From positions 1 through 31,277 of the IMG/VR virus record IMGVR_UViG_3300025603_001173: a DNA stretch of 31,277 bases; one strand, 5' to 3'. Positions 1,151-23,180 of this stretch are shown here, in pieces. Both the position numbers and the translations under genes were made by a program. This stretch comes from a virus. The notes beneath the pieces were generated by a model that did not search any database, had not been told where the DNA came from, and saw nothing but the letters and a program-made list of their open reading frames with translations. The first letter of the stretch is position 1, and each line of letters starts with the position of its first letter.

Positions 1151-1588
1151 TCAGATTACATATACAACAGGCCGCGTGTTAACCAATGTGTTTTCAATGA
1201 TGGCTGAAATTACATTCCAATCACCGTTTGCCAGCCCAGCACCAATCGCTGGCATTGCAATCTCACCGATATTCCAAGAATCAAGTTTTCGGAATACTTC
1301 AGCAATAGCCCAATATGAAACATAGACCTTACTAGCGTCTCTGCCATAATTATTTTGCGTAATAGCATTATGTATAACAGTACCATCATCTTGCACTGAT
1401 ACTACAATTGTACCCAATTCAAGACCACAACTATTATACACGTCATTGTAATCAGTATATGCTTGTGGATACTTATCTCGAATTGCTTTTGCAACACCTG
1501 AGCCCATTACTCCGCGTCTATTACATCCATGCAAAATATGCTGAACTTCAGTTGTAAGTAGATCACCTTTGCGGTATTCAATTTTCAT
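1151..1588 (-). CDS. Macro domain (ADP-ribose-binding) protein, 145 aa
   Basis: The start MKIEYRKGDLL followed by HILHGCNRRGVMGSGVAKAIR and later AMPAIGAGLANGDW is a typical macro domain, here almost the whole protein. Macro domains of this short type bind ADP-ribose and often hydrolyse ADP-ribose-1''-phosphate or O-acetyl-ADP-ribose; which substrate applies here is not visible. ATG 1588 is chosen because AGGAATAAAG precedes it. The gene overlaps the end of the small Cys-rich ORF upstream and belongs to the early operon from the promoter at 1830-1858. A role in NAD-derived signalling or in clearing by-products of RNA end repair is inference. Confidence 0.85.
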   Translation of the reverse strand: MKIEYRKGDLLTTEVQHILHGCNRRGVMGSGVAKAIRDKYPQAYTDYNDVYNSCGLELGTIVVSVQDDGTVIHNAITQNNYGRDASKVYVSYWAIAEVFRKLDSWNIGEIAMPAIGAGLANGDWNVISAIIENTLVNTRPVVYVI

Positions 1589-1745
1589 CTTTATTCCTAT
1601 CAATGGCTTGCTTAATGAGCCGATTTGATATGCCCAGTTCTTCGAAAAAATCTTCGGTGCAGGCATTACACATCAGAACACATTGGGTTTGATCATATTT
1701 CGGATAAATCCTATCATTACACACCAAACATAACAAAAAGTGCAT
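1578..1745 (-). CDS. Small Cys-rich (zinc-ribbon-like) protein, 55 aa
   Basis: Two pairs CLVC and CNAC about 24 residues apart (residues near 6-9 and 30-33) could bind one zinc ion. The rest is helical and acidic (EDFFEELGISNRLIKQAI). The ATG at 1745 lies inside the preceding 27-aa ORF and its end overlaps the start of the macro domain gene, giving a tightly overlapping cluster. A TTG at 1760 in the same frame is an alternative start. Not assigned to a named family. Confidence 0.5.
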   Translation of the reverse strand: MHFLLCLVCNDRIYPKYDQTQCVLMCNACTEDFFEELGISNRLIKQAIDRNKDEN

Positions 1746-4022: not shown

Positions 4023-4057
4023 AAAAAAACCCTCCGAAGTTAATCTTCGGAGGGTTC
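4023..4057 (-). terminator. Intrinsic terminator in front of the tRNA array
   Basis: On the minus strand, AACCCTCCGAAG (4056-4045) pairs perfectly with CTTCGGAGGGTT (4039-4028) around a 5-nt loop, followed by a run of seven T at 4029-4023. It lies 41 nt before the first tRNA (Cys), so transcription from the upstream promoters must pass it to reach the array. A lone TTGACA at 4002-4007, without a convincing -10, could be a weak alternative promoter for the tRNAs. Confidence 0.9.
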
Positions 4058-4146
4058 TAAACAGAATATCTTATTTGCATAAGTTATCAGTCTCGGGAAC
4101 CCTCCCAAGTCATATATTCCTCAAATTTGCAAATAAAGTAAGTCAT
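4028..4146 (-). promoter_or_regulatory. Putative ribosome-mediated attenuator of the tRNA array
   Basis: Leader ORF 4146-4087 followed by the terminator hairpin. GGAGGGTTC (4105-4097), spanning leader codons 14-17, is complementary over 9 nt to GAACCCTCC (4057-4049), the 5' arm of the terminator, so an antiterminator and the terminator exclude each other. A ribosome finishing the leader covers the 4105-4097 segment and lets the terminator form; one stalled on codons 3 to about 9 leaves it free to disrupt the terminator. TTATTTGCA (leader codons 4-7) also pairs with TGCAAATAA at 4080-4071, a further alternative. The pairings are visible in sequence; the mechanism is inferred by analogy with trp/his attenuation. 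Confidence 0.7.
4087..4146 (-). CDS. 19-aa leader peptide of the tRNA array
   Basis: Encodes MTYFICKFEEYMTWEGSRD. Codons 3 to 12 (Tyr, Phe, Ile, Cys, Lys, Phe, Glu, Glu, Tyr, Met) are all read by tRNAs of the downstream array, and every one of its seven clear species is used; codon 18 (CGA, Arg) matches the degenerate UCG element. AGAGAG precedes the ATG. It starts about 30 nt after the early and late promoters and ends 30 nt before the terminator stem. The codon content and the overlap of codons 14-17 with an antiterminator segment suggest the peptide serves only to report tRNA supply to the transcribing polymerase. No protein function is proposed. Confidence 0.7.
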   Translation of the reverse strand: MTYFICKFEEYMTWEGSRD

Positions 4147-4170
4147 GTTTCTCTCTTTTGATTTGTGTTG

Positions 4171-4178
4171 TATTTATA
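4171..4178 (-). promoter_or_regulatory. T4-type late promoter of the tRNA leader
   Basis: TATAAATA on the minus strand, 24 nt upstream of the leader ATG and just downstream of the early promoter at 4182-4210. The leader and tRNA array can therefore be transcribed both early and late. Confidence 0.7.
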
Positions 4179-4181
4179 TTA

Positions 4182-4210
4182 ACTATATACCGATTATTGG
4201 TATATGTCAA
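4182..4210 (-). promoter_or_regulatory. Early promoter of the tRNA leader and array
   Basis: TTGACA at 4205-4210, 17 nt spacer ending AATCGGTA, -10 TATAGT at 4182-4187. It points into the leader peptide, terminator and tRNA genes. Confidence 0.85.
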
Positions 4211-6334: not shown

Positions 6335-7486
6335 TTATTCTAAAATATCTGCAATTTTATGCGCTAGTTTACGGAACCAAATATCGTCATATCCACGAGT
6401 AGTTTCTGCCGCAGTGCCAATTCTTATACCACTTGTCTCTACAAAACTGCGAGGATCATTAGGTATACCATTTTTATTTACTGTAATGCCATTTTTCTCA
6501 AGTAAATCTGCTGCTTGTTTACCACTGTATTTACTATTGCTTAAATCCATTAGAATAATGTGCGAGTCTGTGCCATTGGTCTGAACGGGCAGATCACGCT
6601 GCCTAAAAACATCGCACATTGCTTTGGCATTTTGTACAACTTGTTTAGTATATTCTTCATATTCAGGTGTATCTGCCTCAATAAAACATTGTGCTTTAGC
6701 TGCAATAATATGCATTAGTGGCCCACCCTGAGTTCCAGGAAAAATAGCACTGTTAATTTTACGAGTAAGTTCTTCGTTGTTCCAAAGAATAATACCGCCG
6801 CGAGGACCACGCAGTGTCTTATGTGTCGTACTTGTAACAACATCGGCATAAGGTACAGGATTGGGATATACTCCACCTGCAATAAGACCTGAATAGTGTG
6901 CCATGTCAACTACAAGATACGCACCTACTGTATCAGCAATAGCACGAAACTTTGCCCAGTCAATTTCACGTGGATATGCGCTTGCTCCTGCTACAATAAC
7001 ATCTGGGTTTACTTCAACCGCCTGACGCGCAATAGCATCATAGTCTAAAAAGCCTGCTTCATCTACACCATATGCATAGCAGTCATAAATCTTACCTGAA
7101 ATGTTGTGTTGACTGCCGTGGGACAAATGACCGCCGCTTGCTAAGTCCATTCCTAACAATTTATCACCTGGTTTCATTAGTGCTTGATATACTGCTGTGT
7201 TAGCGTTAGCACCTGAGTGAGGTTGTACGTTTGCAAAATTGGCGCCATACAATTTACATACAGAGTCAATAGCAAGTTGCTCAATATCATCGCAGTTTTC
7301 ACAACCATTATAATATCGTTTTCCAGGATAACCTTCAGCATATTTATTGGTAAATTTACTACCTGATAGTGACATAACAGCATCACTTGCAAAATTTTCA
7401 CTTGCAATTAATTCTATAGTAGAAGCCTGTCTACGCAGTTCGTTTTGTAAAATTTTACTGATTCGTTCATCTGTTTTCATTGCCAT
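6335..7486 (-). CDS. glyA: Serine hydroxymethyltransferase (SHMT), 383 aa
   Basis: PLP enzyme converting serine and tetrahydrofolate to glycine and 5,10-methylene-THF, the one-carbon donor for thymidylate and hydroxymethyl-pyrimidine synthesis. Visible family motifs: [47 protein letters not shown] (residues 194-200), and the PLP lysine K223 in [13 protein letters not shown]. It is shorter than bacterial GlyA (about 417 aa), mainly through a compact C-terminal domain that still keeps [21 protein letters not shown] precedes ATG 7486. It follows the gene at 7526-7735 on the same strand. Likely serves phage nucleotide synthesis, which fits the dCMP deaminase and modification genes on the right. 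Confidence 0.95.
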
Positions 7487-11111: not shown

Positions 11112-12329
11112 TCAGGCGGACTTAACTGCCTGAACACGAGCACGGAACATACCGTCCTTGATTCTATTCACATTAGTCTCGCCATCAGGAAAGACATCAG
11201 CAAACTTTACTGCACGAACAGCATTGAACACATTCACTACTTTTACCAGATGATCTACATTAGCATCTTGACTACCCAGACGACCTCGTTCATCTACTTG
11301 GCCCAATCGGTGCAGCAGATTTACTACTACTGGGTCGTTGAAAGCACCCATCTCAGTGAACATTTTCACATAGGTTTTTGGGTTCAGTTGATCCAGGCGG
11401 TGCATATTCATGTGGAATTTTGTCACTGCCATTAGCCTCTGTCGCATCTTAGAAGGCACACTCAGCCGGTTGCAGAAGTACTCTACTACAGGAACTCCCT
11501 TTACATCATGGCCGAAGTGCTTAGGCAACTTATCACGTGGGGTAAGACCTTTACCAAAGTCGTGTACCAGAGCAGCCATACGAGTTTCCAAATCAAACCC
11601 TACACGAGCAGCAGCAGTCAGAACTAAAAGTGAATGCTCCATCGCGTCACCTTCTGGATGCCAACGGAATGATTCCAGCGCAGTCTTCAGTCTGTATACT
11701 TCTGGAAATACTACATGCAGAGCATCTGTTTCCAGCAGAGTATCAAAGAACAATCGAGGATGGGGTTCCATCATTGCGCGGCTCAGTTCTTTCCAGACGC
11801 GCTCGGAAGTCAGTTCATTCAGAGTACCTGCTTTTGCCATCTGGGATATCAGAGTAGCAGTTTCGGGAGCAACTTTCCATTCTGGACCGAAGCGAGCACG
11901 GAAGCGAGCCAGTCGCAGAACACGAACTGGGTCTTCTTTGAAAGCGTCTGAAGTGTGACGTAGAACTTTATTTTTGATATCAACAGCACCATTGAAAGGA
12001 TCAACAACATTACCATCTTCGTCCATTGCCATTGAGTTGGCCGTAAGGTCCCTTCTACCAAGGTCGTCGGCTAAAGTTACATCAGACGAAAATTCCGAAG
12101 TAAAGCCCAGGTAACCAGTACCTGTTTTCTTTTCCCTGCGCGCAAGGGCGTATTCATCCCCTGTCTCTGGATGGAGATAAACTGGGAAGTCAGCGCCGAC
12201 TTTTTCAAAGCCGGCTGCAGCCATTTCATCATGGGTAGAACCAACGACAACATAATCGCGATCTTCTGGATCTTTGCCCATCAGCATGTCGCGCACTGCA
12301 CCGCCGACTAGAAATTTAGATATTGTCAT
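11112..12329 (-). CDS. cca: CCA-adding enzyme (tRNA nucleotidyltransferase), 405 aa
   Basis: Adds or repairs the 3' CCA of tRNAs. The N-terminal nucleotidyltransferase domain shows LVGGAVRDMLMG, DRDYVVVGST (metal ligands near 23-25), EYALARREKKTG, DLGRRDLTANSMA and EDPVRVLRLARFRARFG; the HD domain has ALVHDFGKGLTP. The arrangement and length are very close to E. coli Cca (412 aa). TTAGGAG precedes the ATG. The gene is visibly richer in GC than its neighbours, with long stretches near half GC, suggesting recent transfer from a bacterium. It could finish the phage Arg-like element, which lacks an encoded CCA, and mend tRNAs damaged during infection (inference). Confidence 0.95.
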   Translation of the reverse strand: MTISKFLVGGAVRDMLMGKDPEDRDYVVVGSTHDEMAAAGFEKVGADFPVYLHPETGDEYALARREKKTGTGYLGFTSEFSSDVTLADDLGRRDLTANSMAMDEDGNVVDPFNGAVDIKNKVLRHTSDAFKEDPVRVLRLARFRARFGPEWKVAPETATLISQMAKAGTLNELTSERVWKELSRAMMEPHPRLFFDTLLETDALHVVFPEVYRLKTALESFRWHPEGDAMEHSLLVLTAAARVGFDLETRMAALVHDFGKGLTPRDKLPKHFGHDVKGVPVVEYFCNRLSVPSKMRQRLMAVTKFHMNMHRLDQLNPKTYVKMFTEMGAFNDPVVVNLLHRLGQVDERGRLGSQDANVDHLVKVVNVFNAVRAVKFADVFPDGETNVNRIKDGMFRARVQAVKSA

Positions 12330-19018: not shown

Positions 19019-19047
19019 TTGACTTAACCCTATCCATGGGTTATGGT
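19019..19047 (+). promoter_or_regulatory. Probable promoter of the DNA polymerase gene
   Basis: TTGACT at 19019-19024, 17 nt spacer, -10 TATGGT at 19042-19047. Weaker than the other promoters. The spacer contains an ACCC-ATGGGT inverted repeat. Confidence 0.5.
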
Positions 19048-19081
19048 GGAACAAATTACATACATTATTGAAAGGAATTTG

Positions 19082-20578
19082 ATGTCTAAATTCTACACAT
19101 CAGTCGAACGCTATGGTAGTAACATATTATGGAGAGGTTATGATAATGGTCGTCGCTTCTCTAAAAAGATAACATTTGAGCCTACACTTTATCAATATGC
19201 AAAACAAGAGACTAATTTCAAGTCATTGCTCGGTGAAAGATATCTAGCTCCCAAAAAATTTGATAGTATGAACGATGCCAAGGACTTTGTTGAGCGGTAT
19301 AAAGACGTTCATGGGCTTGAAATTTACGGTACCTCTAATTATGTTACACAGTTCATACAGGAACAATATCCTGGTCATATTGACTTTGATATGAGCCAGA
19401 TTAATATCTTTAACTTCGACATTGAGGTTGATATTTCAGAAAAACTTCCAAATATGGAAACAGCCGATAATGAAATTACTTCTATTGCAATCAAATCATC
19501 AAAATCAGATACATATCATCTATTAGGTCGCAAGGATTATGATAAAACTATAACTCTGTCAGGTATTGATCCAGATAATATTCAATTTATGAAGTTTGAT
19601 ACTGAATTACAACTATTGAGTAGATTTATGCAAATTTGGAAAAATGATTATCCAGATATTGTCACTGGTTGGAATGTAGAATATTTTGATATTCAATATA
19701 TTGTAACTCGTATCATACGTCTCTTCGGTGAAGCCAAGGCTAGAGAATTATCGCCTTGGGGTAATATCCGACAGACAAGCAGAGAGATCTTTAACCGTAA
19801 ACAATCAACATATAATATCTCCGGTGTAACTATTATTGACTATATGGATGCCTTTAAAAAGTTTGGCTATAAATATGGCACTCAGGAATCATATAAACTT
19901 GATCATATCGCGCATACAGTGTTAGGTACTAAGAAACTTGACTATTCACAATATGGCTCACTCACTGAATTGTATAACAAAAATCCACAACTGTATCTTG
20001 ATTATAATCTTGTGGATACGCATCTCATTCAACGTATGGAAGAAGAAACCGCTTTGCTGGCACTTGTGCTTACTGTTGCATATGGCGGCGGTGTGAACTA
20101 TTCTGATGCGTTTGGTACTGTTGGTATCTGGGAAGCAACACTATATCGTAAGCTTATGGAAAAGTCACTAATCCCACCAGTTAAAAGTAGTCCTGGTGAC
20201 AAACTAGGGGAATTGGTAGGTGGATATGTAAAGGATCCAGTCACAGGTGTTCATCGCTGGGTAGTCTCGTTTGACCTTAACAGTTTGTATCCACACCTAA
20301 TGTTACAATATAATATGTCACCTGAAACATTTGTTGCGGATAAGCGTGCATATGTTTCACAGGACATGGTTCTTAATGACGAGTATCAAAACGATGATAA
20401 AGATTATTCAGTTTGCGCAAATGGTGTACATTTTACTAATAAGAAACTTGGTATCATCCCAGAGATCATTCAAGAATATTATGCAAATCGTTCAGTAATC
20501 AAAAAGGAAATGTTGCGAGTTGAATCTGAAATCGAAGAGATAAAAAAAGAAATACAAAGAAGAAAAAAAATGTTATAA
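19082..20578 (+). CDS. 43: DNA polymerase gp43, N-terminal part (gp43A), 498 aa
   Basis: Family B replicative polymerase, N-terminal, exonuclease and first palm part. I start at 19082 (MSKFYTSVERYGSNILWRG) with AAAGGA upstream. Exonuclease motifs: FNFDIEVDIS (about residue 112), VTGWNVEYFDIQYI and YNLVDTHLI. Polymerase motif A is SFDLNSLYPHLMLQYNMSPE, near residue 396. The ORF stops after a charged helix (EIKKEIQRRKKML), before motifs B and C, because a homing endonuclease gene is inserted. The missing half is at 21835-23180. A similar split by a mobile endonuclease gene is known for gp43 of Aeromonas T4-like phages, where two subunits make the enzyme. Confidence 0.93.
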   Translation: MSKFYTSVERYGSNILWRGYDNGRRFSKKITFEPTLYQYAKQETNFKSLLGERYLAPKKFDSMNDAKDFVERYKDVHGLEIYGTSNYVTQFIQEQYPGHIDFDMSQINIFNFDIEVDISEKLPNMETADNEITSIAIKSSKSDTYHLLGRKDYDKTITLSGIDPDNIQFMKFDTELQLLSRFMQIWKNDYPDIVTGWNVEYFDIQYIVTRIIRLFGEAKARELSPWGNIRQTSREIFNRKQSTYNISGVTIIDYMDAFKKFGYKYGTQESYKLDHIAHTVLGTKKLDYSQYGSLTELYNKNPQLYLDYNLVDTHLIQRMEEETALLALVLTVAYGGGVNYSDAFGTVGIWEATLYRKLMEKSLIPPVKSSPGDKLGELVGGYVKDPVTGVHRWVVSFDLNSLYPHLMLQYNMSPETFVADKRAYVSQDMVLNDEYQNDDKDYSVCANGVHFTNKKLGIIPEIIQEYYANRSVIKKEMLRVESEIEEIKKEIQRRKKML

Positions 20579-20583
20579 TAAAC

Positions 20584-20635
20584 TCCTATTATGGTTCTAT
20601 TGTATATAAATACTATTCTACTATACATAATAGGG
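20584..20635 (+). promoter_or_regulatory. Hairpin hiding the endonuclease ribosome binding site, with a late promoter in its loop
   Basis: CCTATTATG (20585-20593) pairs with CATAATAGG (20626-20634), extended by one G-U pair. The 3' arm includes the ATAGGG that is the ribosome binding site for ATG 20642. Inside the loop lies TATAAATA (20605-20612), which would start RNA near 20619, after the 5' arm. Early read-through RNA would fold and block translation; late RNA lacks the 5' arm and is translated. T4 I-TevI is controlled in just this way. Confidence 0.7.
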
Positions 20636-20641
20636 AAACAC

Positions 20642-21847
20642 ATGGTTGTTTATAAAGAAATACTAGAAAGTAAACCACACGATAAAAGACAATTAGAAAG
20701 ATATATAAAGTTTATAGAGCACTGTAGAGAAAGTAATGATGCCGATAGAAATATTGGGCATCATATTTGTCCAAGAGCCGCAGAAATGTTCAAGGAATAT
20801 GAATGTTTCAGGAAAAATCCTTGGAATAAAATATTGCTCACGGAGAGACAACACTTTATAGCACATCTTATTCTATGGAAAGTTTATAGGAATGTTTCTA
20901 TGACATTTGCCTTGAATATGATGAGAAACTTCGGAGGTGTCACAGTAACAAGTAGATTATATGAAGAACTTAGGGAAGATGTTTCTTCCATCATAGGCAA
21001 ATCTAATAAAGGAAGAAAAAGAACTAAAGATGTAAGAGATGCAATAGGTAAAAGAACAGAAAACACAATTATAGTATTCGATTGTAATGACACTGATCGT
21101 AACTGCTTTAGGATCAACAAAGATGATGAAAAATATGACCCAGAAATACATTTATTTTATAGGACCGGTTATAAACATAGCGAAGAAACTAAGTTAAAGA
21201 TTGGAAGACCGGGAAAAATATGCTGTTATAATGAAGAAACCAATACTATAAAATATGTAGAAGATGTTGATTCTATACCGGATGGCTTTCGTATTGGAGG
21301 TGGTCCCAATCAAAAGATCTCAGAGTATTTTTCGAATAGTATATGGTGTTACAACCCAAAAACAAAACATCAAATACGTATACCTGAAAATGAAATACCA
21401 AATGATTATATCAGAGGTAGGATCTTAGAAAATAACCCGGGAATTGACAAGGCAAACGCAATGATGGGTGTTGTAGATATAATAGAGCAAAAAGCAACAA
21501 AAACTACCGTAATAGATAAAACCCGGCACGGGCCTGAATCTGGTAGAAGTACTGAAAAAACTGTAGTTGCAGTTTTTAATGATAAGATCTTTACAAACAT
21601 AAAAATCTTAGTTGACTTTTTACATGGCAACGGTTATTATATAACCATAGAAAGAGGTAATAATACATTAAATGCACTGAACCATATGATAATCAAAAAA
21701 CCTCACTTTAACTGTAAAAATGAGATAAACGAATTCAGAAAGAAAAATCAAGGCAAAACTCTAAATGATTTGGGTATATTTTTCTATAAACTCACGGACT
21801 TTGATCTTAAAAAACATAAAGGGAAAGAAATATATTGGAAGACTTAA
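20642..21847 (+). CDS. HNH homing endonuclease inserted in gene 43, 401 aa
   Basis: Residues about 39-80 hold an HNH motif (GHHICPRAAEMF, then NPWNKILLTERQHFIAHLI), followed by NUMOD-like DNA-binding modules: HSEETKLKIGRP, CCYNEETNTIKYVEDVDSIP, WCYNPKTKHQIRIPENEIP and a basic C-terminal domain. Start ATG 20642 is preceded by the sequestered ribosome binding site. The gene interrupts gp43 between the KKM and LED codons; rejoining the flanks restores a continuous charged helix. Its product probably cuts gp43 of related phages to spread itself, and possibly also serves the nearby ORF-less intron. Codon use is more AT-rich than in gp43. Confidence 0.88.
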   Translation: MVVYKEILESKPHDKRQLERYIKFIEHCRESNDADRNIGHHICPRAAEMFKEYECFRKNPWNKILLTERQHFIAHLILWKVYRNVSMTFALNMMRNFGGVTVTSRLYEELREDVSSIIGKSNKGRKRTKDVRDAIGKRTENTIIVFDCNDTDRNCFRINKDDEKYDPEIHLFYRTGYKHSEETKLKIGRPGKICCYNEETNTIKYVEDVDSIPDGFRIGGGPNQKISEYFSNSIWCYNPKTKHQIRIPENEIPNDYIRGRILENNPGIDKANAMMGVVDIIEQKATKTTVIDKTRHGPESGRSTEKTVVAVFNDKIFTNIKILVDFLHGNGYYITIERGNNTLNALNHMIIKKPHFNCKNEINEFRKKNQGKTLNDLGIFFYKLTDFDLKKHKGKEIYWKT

Positions 21848-23180
21848 CATTGGAAGAACTAGAGGAACTTATCGAAAATAAAAAACAGATATCAACACGC
21901 CTGCACAATAAACAGATGTCAATAAAAATCCTTAAACATTCATGAGGCTTCACGGGGTGACCCGTGTCGAAAATTCCGTGAACTGCTGGAAAGCTAAGTG
22001 ATTATAGATCATATGCCAATCAGCATCCAAGCCCGAAAGGGAAGGTTCAGAGACTATCCTATATGGAGTAGGGTTACAAGCTAATGGTAACTCGAAGCGC
22101 GGAACATCTTTATAAAGATGATGATATAGTCCGATACCAGTAGAAATGCTGGAGACAGTTTGCGACTGTCGTAACAAAAAGATGAATAGTTTATACGGCG
22201 CCGTCGCGAACCGTTACTTCCTATACTATATTGCAGAAATGGCAGAAGCAATTACTACATCAGGTCAGCTTTCAATCAGATATGCTGAGAAGTCAATTAA
22301 CGGATATCTTAATAAAGTTTTAAAAACAGACGACATTGACTATGTTTATTACTGCGATACAGACTCCGCTTATGTTAATCTTGAGCCACTGATTGTAAAG
22401 GTTTTCGGCAGTGCCGATATTGATCGAAAAGCCGGTGAAGACTTTATTGATAGTGTCTGTAAGGAAAAGATTGAAAAGGCAATTCAGCATGGCTATGAAG
22501 AATTAGCTAACTATATGGGTGCATATAGAAACGCAATGTCAATGAAACGTGAAAAGATAACCGACAGAACGTTATTCGTTGCTAAAAAGCGCTATATTAT
22601 GAGTGTTTTAAACTCGGAAGGTGTTCATTATGAAACACCCAAGATTTCAGTCACTGGTATTGAATCGGTTAGATCATCAACACCTGAAGTATGCAGGGAT
22701 GCGCTGAAGGAATCCTTTGGTATTATTCTTAATTCGGACGAAAAAACAGCACAGGCTTTTATTGAAGACTTTAGACAGCGATTTGTTACTTTGGCGCCAG
22801 AGCAGGTTGGTAAAGTTTCTGGTACTGATGATATTGCTAAATATACTGATAGAACAGGATCTTATCTCAAAGGTTGTCCAATACACGTACGTGGTGCAAT
22901 TCTATACAATAAAATGATGAAAGAAAAAGGTCTCAATAAGAAATACGAGTTAATTCAGTCAGGTGATAAGGTAAAGTTTGTTTATCTGAAAACACCAAAT
23001 CCTTTGATGGAAAATATTATTTCATTCCCTGGCTTCCTACCAAAGGAACTTGGACTTGACAAATATATTGATCATGAGTTGCAGTTTGAAAAGGTTTTCG
23101 TTAAACCACTCGAAAACATCCTAGACGCACTTAACTGGTCATCAAAGAAAATTGATACACTTGAGGATTTCTTTAGTTGA
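21835..23180 (+). CDS. 43: DNA polymerase gp43, C-terminal part (gp43B), two exons
   Basis: Exon 1 is 21835-21933 and exon 2 is 22182-23180, joined by removal of a group I intron, giving about 365 aa. Exon 1 ends HNKQMSIKIL and exon 2 starts MNSLYGAVANRYF, restoring polymerase motif B (KILMNSLYG); motif C YYCDTDSAY follows near residue 90, and the thumb ends TLEDFFS. TTG at 21835 is the likely start, 11 nt after AGGG, overlapping the endonuclease gene by 13 nt. Without splicing the first exon stops nine nt into the intron region (TGA near 21943). Together with gp43A it supplies the whole polymerase; the two polypeptides must associate. Confidence 0.85.
21934..22181 (+). other. Group I self-splicing intron, 248 nt, ORF-less
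   Basis: P1: exon end TCCTT can pair with GAGG (21944-21947), with the U-G pair at the 5' splice site. P2-like hairpin CACGGG-GTGA-CCCGTG at 21951-21966. CCC-GAAA-GGG stem at 22032-22041. Conserved core strands GTTCAGAGACTA (22045-22056) and ATAGTC (22126-22131), which form P7. P8-like CATCTT-TATA-AAGATG and two P9-region hairpins CCAG/CTGG (22137-22152) and GACAGT/ACTGTC (22154-22170). The last base is G (22181), the usual omega G. Splicing restores the gp43 frame exactly. Confidence 0.9.

Follow-up and report, generated by a model that had tools for sequence, protein, structure and literature searches.

Codon compensation and counter-defence are the main answers in a decades-long debate over the presence of tRNA genes in phages. 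In the transcription attenuators of the trp, his and thr type, a leader ORF carries regulatory codons for one amino acid, a ribosome that finishes the leader covers region 2 of the transcript, and mutually exclusive hairpins control the making of enzymes. The ilvGMEDA attenuator is multivalent, with several tRNAs (Ile, Val, Leu) integrated by one leader, and T-box riboswitches sense the state of a tRNA and control a terminator by binding uncharged tRNA directly, without a leader ORF. Attenuation of ilv is named in PMC1183508. Phage tRNAs are reported to rescue infection from tRNA-cleaving defences (PMC10264068, PMC11555353, PMC12409363). Such tRNAs are the same gene product as that of the element described here and could replace cleaved host tRNAs; regulation by attenuation is not described (PMC10264068, PMC11555353), and PMC10264068 mentions neither attenuation nor a leader nor a promoter. 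Searches of open-access papers yielded no account of phage tRNA genes under attenuation, which agrees with the statement of an earlier sequence-only reading of this DNA that no phage case had been described.

We analysed a viral window of 31,277 nt (the whole stretch of IMG/VR record IMGVR_UViG_3300025603_001173, positions 1 to 31,277), in which a tRNA array is preceded by an element that is very probably a ribosome-mediated transcription attenuator of the phage tRNA operon, one of a large class for which we found no description. The mechanism class is known, but not this use of it in phages, where one leader would read several tRNAs and control the genes that encode them. Like the trp, his and thr attenuators, the phage element has a leader ORF with regulatory codons, a finishing ribosome that would cover region 2, and exclusive hairpins, whereas up to about 20 tRNA species take the place of one amino acid and the tRNAs themselves are made instead of enzymes. 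It differs further from trp in that the ribosome-free model mostly forms the antiterminator, and from ilvGMEDA, with its three amino acids and biosynthetic genes, in that the window element reads seven amino acids, others up to 19–20, with tRNA genes as output. With the T-box it would share the sensing of tRNA state and the control of a terminator, but not the direct tRNA binding or the lack of a leader ORF.

The element ahead of the window tRNA genes

The whole element, from promoter to terminator, lies on the minus strand at 4210–4020, 5' of the tRNA genes. A sigma-70-like promoter (4210–4182), assigned from consensus only, consists of a −35 TTGACA (4210–4205) and a −10 TATAGT (4187–4182) with 11 of 12 consensus matches and a 17-nt spacer. 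A weak ribosome site, the Shine-Dalgarno-like AGAGAG (4156–4151), stands directly 5' of the leader ATG, and AGAGGA occupies a comparable position in the sister element L004. The leader ORF, MTYFICKFEEYMTWEGSRD, has 19 codons and a TGA stop (4146–4087), codons 3–12 (4140–4111) forming the putative sensor segment. Region 2, the antiterminator 5' arm GGAGGGTTC (4105–4097), is complementary over 9 nt to region 3, the terminator 5' arm GAACCCTCC (4057–4049), which is common to both hairpins; the inner part of the antiterminator hairpin (4096–4058) was placed from the folding of the corresponding stretch in members of the class. Region 4 (4035–4020) comprises the terminator 3' arm GGAGGGTTT (4035–4027) and the T tract, and the intrinsic terminator (4058–4026) is strong, with 14 pairs and a T tail. 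All the parts that the sequence-only reading had placed before the tRNA array (promoter, 19-codon ORF and terminator) were located, as was its 9-nt pairing. The whole element also matches the Rfam His_leader model (RF00514) at 37 bits, below the 49-bit gathering cut-off, and the T-box covariance model was absent among its Rfam matches up to E 1.

The array, on the same strand, encodes tRNA-Cys (GCA, 3982–3897), tRNA-Lys (UUU, 3879–3800), tRNA-Ile (GAU, 3787–3714), tRNA-Glu (UUC, 3707–3633), tRNA-Tyr (GUA, 3517–3433), tRNA-Phe (GAA, 3425–3350) and tRNA-Met (CAU, 3345–3275). ARAGORN called Lys, Ile, Glu, Phe and Met by default, and Tyr and Cys only with thresholds lowered to 95% and 90%, respectively. 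Each of the ten leader codons 3–12 (Tyr, Phe, Ile, Cys, Lys, Phe, Glu, Glu, Tyr, Met) is decoded by a tRNA of this array (GAG being counted as read through U–G wobble with the anticodon UUC), and all seven species are used, confirming by ARAGORN and codon count what the sequence-only reading had noticed. Array-read codons make up 32.6% of the 9403 codons in the long ORFs of the window, a frequency at which ten in succession have a probability of 1.3e-5, and the earlier estimate (40%, 1 in 10,000) was conservative. None of the 9043 ten-codon stretches in those ORFs is read entirely by the array, and a run of ten with all seven species arose once in 2,000,000 simulated draws. An additional Arg-like UCG element claimed for the array was not recovered, giving no ARAGORN call down to an 80% threshold and no Rfam match at E<1.

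The window transcript folds far better than shuffled sequences (z −6.25). We modelled the transcript as it is before the terminator 3' arm exists, allowing no pairing under the ribosome footprint, which spans 15 nt behind the A-site codon and 14 nt ahead of it. The modelled probability of the antiterminator was 1.00 with the A site at codons 2–10, 0.66 at codon 11, 0.07 at codon 12 and 0 from codon 13 to the stop, so that the modelled changeover to the terminator falls at A-site codons 11–12, where the array-codon run ends. In the window model the antiterminator also prevails when no ribosome is present and the 3' arm has yet to be made, an outcome that kinetics could alter, and the full-length fold contains both the leader hairpins and the terminator. 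Termination of an untranslated leader by way of the leader hairpins was also considered; it is unsupported for most members, the ribosome-free antiterminator being low in only a few of those modelled.

Leader codons and tRNA arrays across phages

A degenerate search for MTYFICKFEE was used to find relatives of the leader. In a second phage (L004/L006/L007) the leader is identical at the DNA level, while the upstream sequence, promoter, ribosome site and terminator loop differ from those of the window; its array holds the same seven species in another order, together with a second Lys tRNA. A diverged homologue, MKRFICTNEWYMPWEGSQD (L013), carries Thr (ACC) and Trp codons in its sensor part, and its array includes tRNA-Thr (GGU) and tRNA-Trp, both absent from the window array. 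The relatives keep the ORF and their codons shift with the tRNA content, as the sequence-only reading had required.

We scanned IMG/VR and bacterial genomes for the pattern GGAGGG..CCCTCC..GGAGGG+T, which specifies three arms and a T tail and includes no tRNA or codon criterion. Viral contigs held 54 such places, 44 of them with tRNA genes within 1 kb downstream; of the places without, four run into the end of the sequence within 534 nt and one has its first tRNA 1–1.5 kb away. The identical pattern in bacterial genomes was accompanied by tRNA in 2 of 124 places. Nearly all tRNA-bearing viral places contain a short ORF with a ribosome site that ends over the first arm, and the same anatomy stands before tRNA arrays in dozens of phages. 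Leaders range from MFATSYSYCYYGSSSSSVSYGYESEEGSMGGKV (L064/L214), which precedes an array limited to Glu, Ser, Tyr, Gly and Cys tRNAs, to MMNATKNMQPISQVLPCAGFIVRGYEWDIMSMEGSIN (L011/L204), which contains 19 of the 20 amino acids and precedes a large array.

Among isolates, a detector accepting any arm sequence found the element in Agrobacterium phage Atu_ph07, with the leader MTNPMQPTTEIIAIERNVFVRAEAAMFWYPISGSDSHTGDKR, and in Sinorhizobium phage Phosso, with a GTG start and 54 codons. The Atu_ph07 leader corresponds to gp469 (339118–339246, minus strand), annotated as a hypothetical protein; the genome paper of this phage reports 33 tRNAs and mentions neither a leader nor attenuation. The element was absent from the regions read of 12 other tRNA-bearing isolates (T5, KVP40, GAP32, XacN1, PA5oct, phiM12, Moby, DSS3_MAL1, DLP_6, RcXuper, RHph_I1_18 and Vibrio phage 2.275.O), so it is not universal. 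Searches of the phage collection with leaders returned nothing convincing, and a capsid search made to place the phages gave a T4-type capsid gene above the cut-off in only 3 of 33 contigs, most of which are fragments.

Among the bacterial matches of the arm pattern are poly-Thr leaders (MILCADFMTTTTTTTTQIATGGT is one), of which two precede threonyl-tRNA synthetase genes (thrS), and leaders with WWC or WWWC that precede TrpB-like enzymes. The stop codons of these Thr and Trp leaders end 12–25 nt past the arm start. As thrS and TrpB-like leaders were retrieved by the same pattern, the anatomy is that of amino-acid attenuators. The attenuator-like bacterial leaders (L081, L116, L145, L157; L079, L161, L167; L075, L084) fall into groups that are poly-Thr before thrS, Trp-rich before TrpB-like genes, or placed before RhtB-type exporters.

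The match between leader codons and arrays was evaluated on 28 non-redundant leaders, each with at least five tRNAs, by comparing their own with permuted arrays. The fraction of codons read was 0.70 with the own array and 0.515 with permuted ones (z 6.8, 0/100,000), the fraction of array species (as amino acids) present in the leader was 0.93 against 0.755, and the Jaccard index gave z 7.8. A second set of 13 leaders, found through other arms (CCGGKT, GGGGCT) or in isolates, gave z 4.5 for the codon match (0/100,000), and all 41 leaders together matched at 0.63 against 0.47 (z 9.1). Some leader types are related, and a set reduced for this reason to one leader per type (22 leaders) retained z 7.2 (0/200,000). 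Codon choice follows the array as well: among codons whose amino acid is represented in the array, 0.652 fit the array anticodon, compared with 0.563 expected from phage codon usage (z 3.5).

Three phages carry two elements with arrays that could both be read. Own codon matches were.68/.59,.83/.86 and.74/.78, and fell to.23/.05,.13/.05 and.13/.13 when the two leaders were swapped; because leader types are related from pair to pair, the three cases are not fully independent. This loss of match inside one phage rules out general codon usage. In the 330-kb phage the two arrays, CEFHIKLMRY and ADGLNPQSTVW, jointly cover all 20 amino acids, with Leu alone in both.

Small arrays show the correspondence directly: ...RWCPPR... 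precedes Trp-Pro-Cys-Arg in L400, ...IICWCPI... precedes Trp-Cys-Ile-Arg in L475, ...HQPQNYDPHSD precedes Pro-Tyr-Asp-His in L376, and ...ANNQNQQTS precedes Gln-Asn-Gln in L481, where the objective ORF rule chose a longer frame that shows the run only in its last part. The Asn-Ser-Thr-Ala group of L400 was searched for a second leader and has none. Poor matches occurred in L198 (0.24) and L402 (0.30), partly because arrays are cut or tRNAs were missed, and leaders of near-complete arrays carry little weight singly, since such arrays match any gene well. In L376 (1926–2335) the array and its leader, rich in Asn, Gln, His, Tyr and Asp, take in most of the queuosine-type (GUN anticodon) tRNAs, a combination that may hint at a queuosine-related trigger.

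Geometry and folding across members

In leaders with the GGAGGG arm, the stop codon ends 18–22 nt past the start of region 2, with a single exception at 15 nt, and 25–37 nt ahead of the terminator arm. All 35 folded members form one long antiterminator hairpin whose inner stem varies in sequence; in 23 of 27 members this inner stretch is more stable than its shuffled versions (mean z −2.66). As the modelled ribosome nears the stop, the antiterminator is lost in 31 of 35 members, the window type included, while in the remaining four, whose stop is 32–38 nt beyond the region 2 start, a masked ribosome near the stop fails to abolish it. Ribosome-free models across members gave mostly the antiterminator. 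Array codons make up 67% of codons upstream of the modelled switch and 52% after it (p 8e-6, computed on cells that are not independent).

The phage elements share with trp/his-type attenuators a short ORF with a ribosome site between promoter and terminator, regulatory codons that are cognate to the operon product in the codon–array tests, exclusive antiterminator and terminator folds with one common arm, and a stop placed so that the terminating ribosome masks region 2 (31/35 modelled). The mutual exclusion of antiterminator and terminator proposed for the window was borne out by folding in the window and in members, and the attenuation reading as a whole is supported by the codon shifts of relatives, the 35/35 antiterminators and the modelled stalls as opposed to completion. 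The expectation that the pairing segments covary stood in part: beyond the searched 6-mer, a 12-nt duplex energy was significant for the own arms (61/20,000), a modest effect, while contiguous extension of the 6-mer arms was not significant (1.11 own against 1.01), and inner terminator pairs were no better than swapped partners.

Mechanism, purpose and alternative explanations

Computation establishes the parts, the match of leader codons to arrays in many phages, the exclusive folds and their conserved geometry; the behaviour of translation and termination in the cell, and what depletes the tRNAs, are inferred. RNA polymerase would start near 4175, with a ribosome following on the 19-codon leader. 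When all tRNAs of the set are available, the ribosome at the stop would cover region 2 (4105–4097), the terminator (4057–4027) would form, and transcription would stop before the tRNAs. When any one of them is short, the ribosome would wait in codons 3–11, leaving region 2 to pair with region 3 (4057–4049); the terminator would then come too late, and the seven tRNA genes would be transcribed. Since the sensed molecules are the products, the same tRNA set, this would amount to end-product feedback on a multi-tRNA pool, and replacement tRNAs are probably produced only once ribosomes lack them.

Whether this attenuator has the specific purpose of detecting host anticodon nucleases (PrrC, RloC, PARIS AriB, retron effectors, VapC) and switching on replacements is a separate matter, which we consider possible but put at somewhat under even chances. 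The rescue from tRNA-cleaving defences reported in PMC10264068, PMC11555353 and PMC12409363 is consistent with it, as is the sensing of many species together, by which any single cleaved tRNA would suffice. However, amino-acid limitation, tRNA decay after host shut-off, heavy late translation and plain supply/demand feedback would use the same codons, and an array that covers nearly all 20 amino acids goes beyond what a single nuclease would demand. With the same reserve we suggest that phage RNA switches of a general class would monitor a tRNA set during infection and answer the loss of any member, typically to a host anticodon-nuclease defence, with a replacement operon, phages with two operons splitting the genetic code between two sensors. 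Regulation by tRNA shortage would mean that the tRNA genes stay off as long as the host supplies enough tRNA. This favours on-demand replacement, and reporters and existing phage isolates could serve to test why phages carry such genes. Attenuation would be extended from one amino acid to a joint reading of as many as about 20 tRNAs, and the sequence signature would name the tRNAs that a phage expects to lose.

Three explanations dispense with attenuation by a translated leader. The leader could encode a small functional peptide or protein, with the terminator and tRNAs as unrelated neighbours; the window peptide is indeed identical in a second phage, and the Atu_ph07 leader is annotated as a hypothetical protein, but across phages the peptides share little except codons that follow the array, the two leaders of one phage are opposite in composition, and the place where the ORF ends is tied to region 2, a constraint also seen in amino-acid attenuators, which leaves this explanation a slim chance. 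An RNA-only tRNA sensor of T-box type, or a simple terminator that ends an upstream transcript, with an ORF present by chance, would account for the intrinsic terminator and the structured leader RNA (z −6.25); with an ORF, ribosome site and codon bias that recur in members, and no Rfam T-box match even at E<1, its chance is slimmer still. There remains the proposal that phages carry tRNAs for the codons they use and that any ORF fits, which holds for near-complete arrays, matched by every gene of the phage concerned (L202, L213, L286). It is contradicted by the leader swap inside one phage, by a leader match that is higher than that of same-locus genes in 32 of 35 cases (p 4e-8), and by an array-species coverage of 0.936 in leaders against 0.666 in gene windows of the same length (p 1e-10), and we give it hardly any chance at all.

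Several further features of the window were recorded. A tiny ORF, MELKAIIESLKHLEKKVK (4270–4214, minus strand), lies just upstream of the attenuator promoter and has its own TTGACA/TATATT promoter (4325–4297). A macro-domain protein (1151–1666, minus strand) matches the PADLOC DarG model at 3.4e-22 and is possibly a phage protein that undoes DarT ADP-ribosylation. A serine hydroxymethyltransferase-like gene (6335–7486, minus strand) is also found in Aeromonas and other phages, and the DNA polymerase is encoded in two ORFs (19043–23180, plus strand) between which lie a group I intron (21924–22153) and an ORF for a homing endonuclease. The window also encodes a phage CCA-adding enzyme (tRNA nucleotidyltransferase; 11112–12329, minus strand), which fits a phage that matures its own tRNAs.
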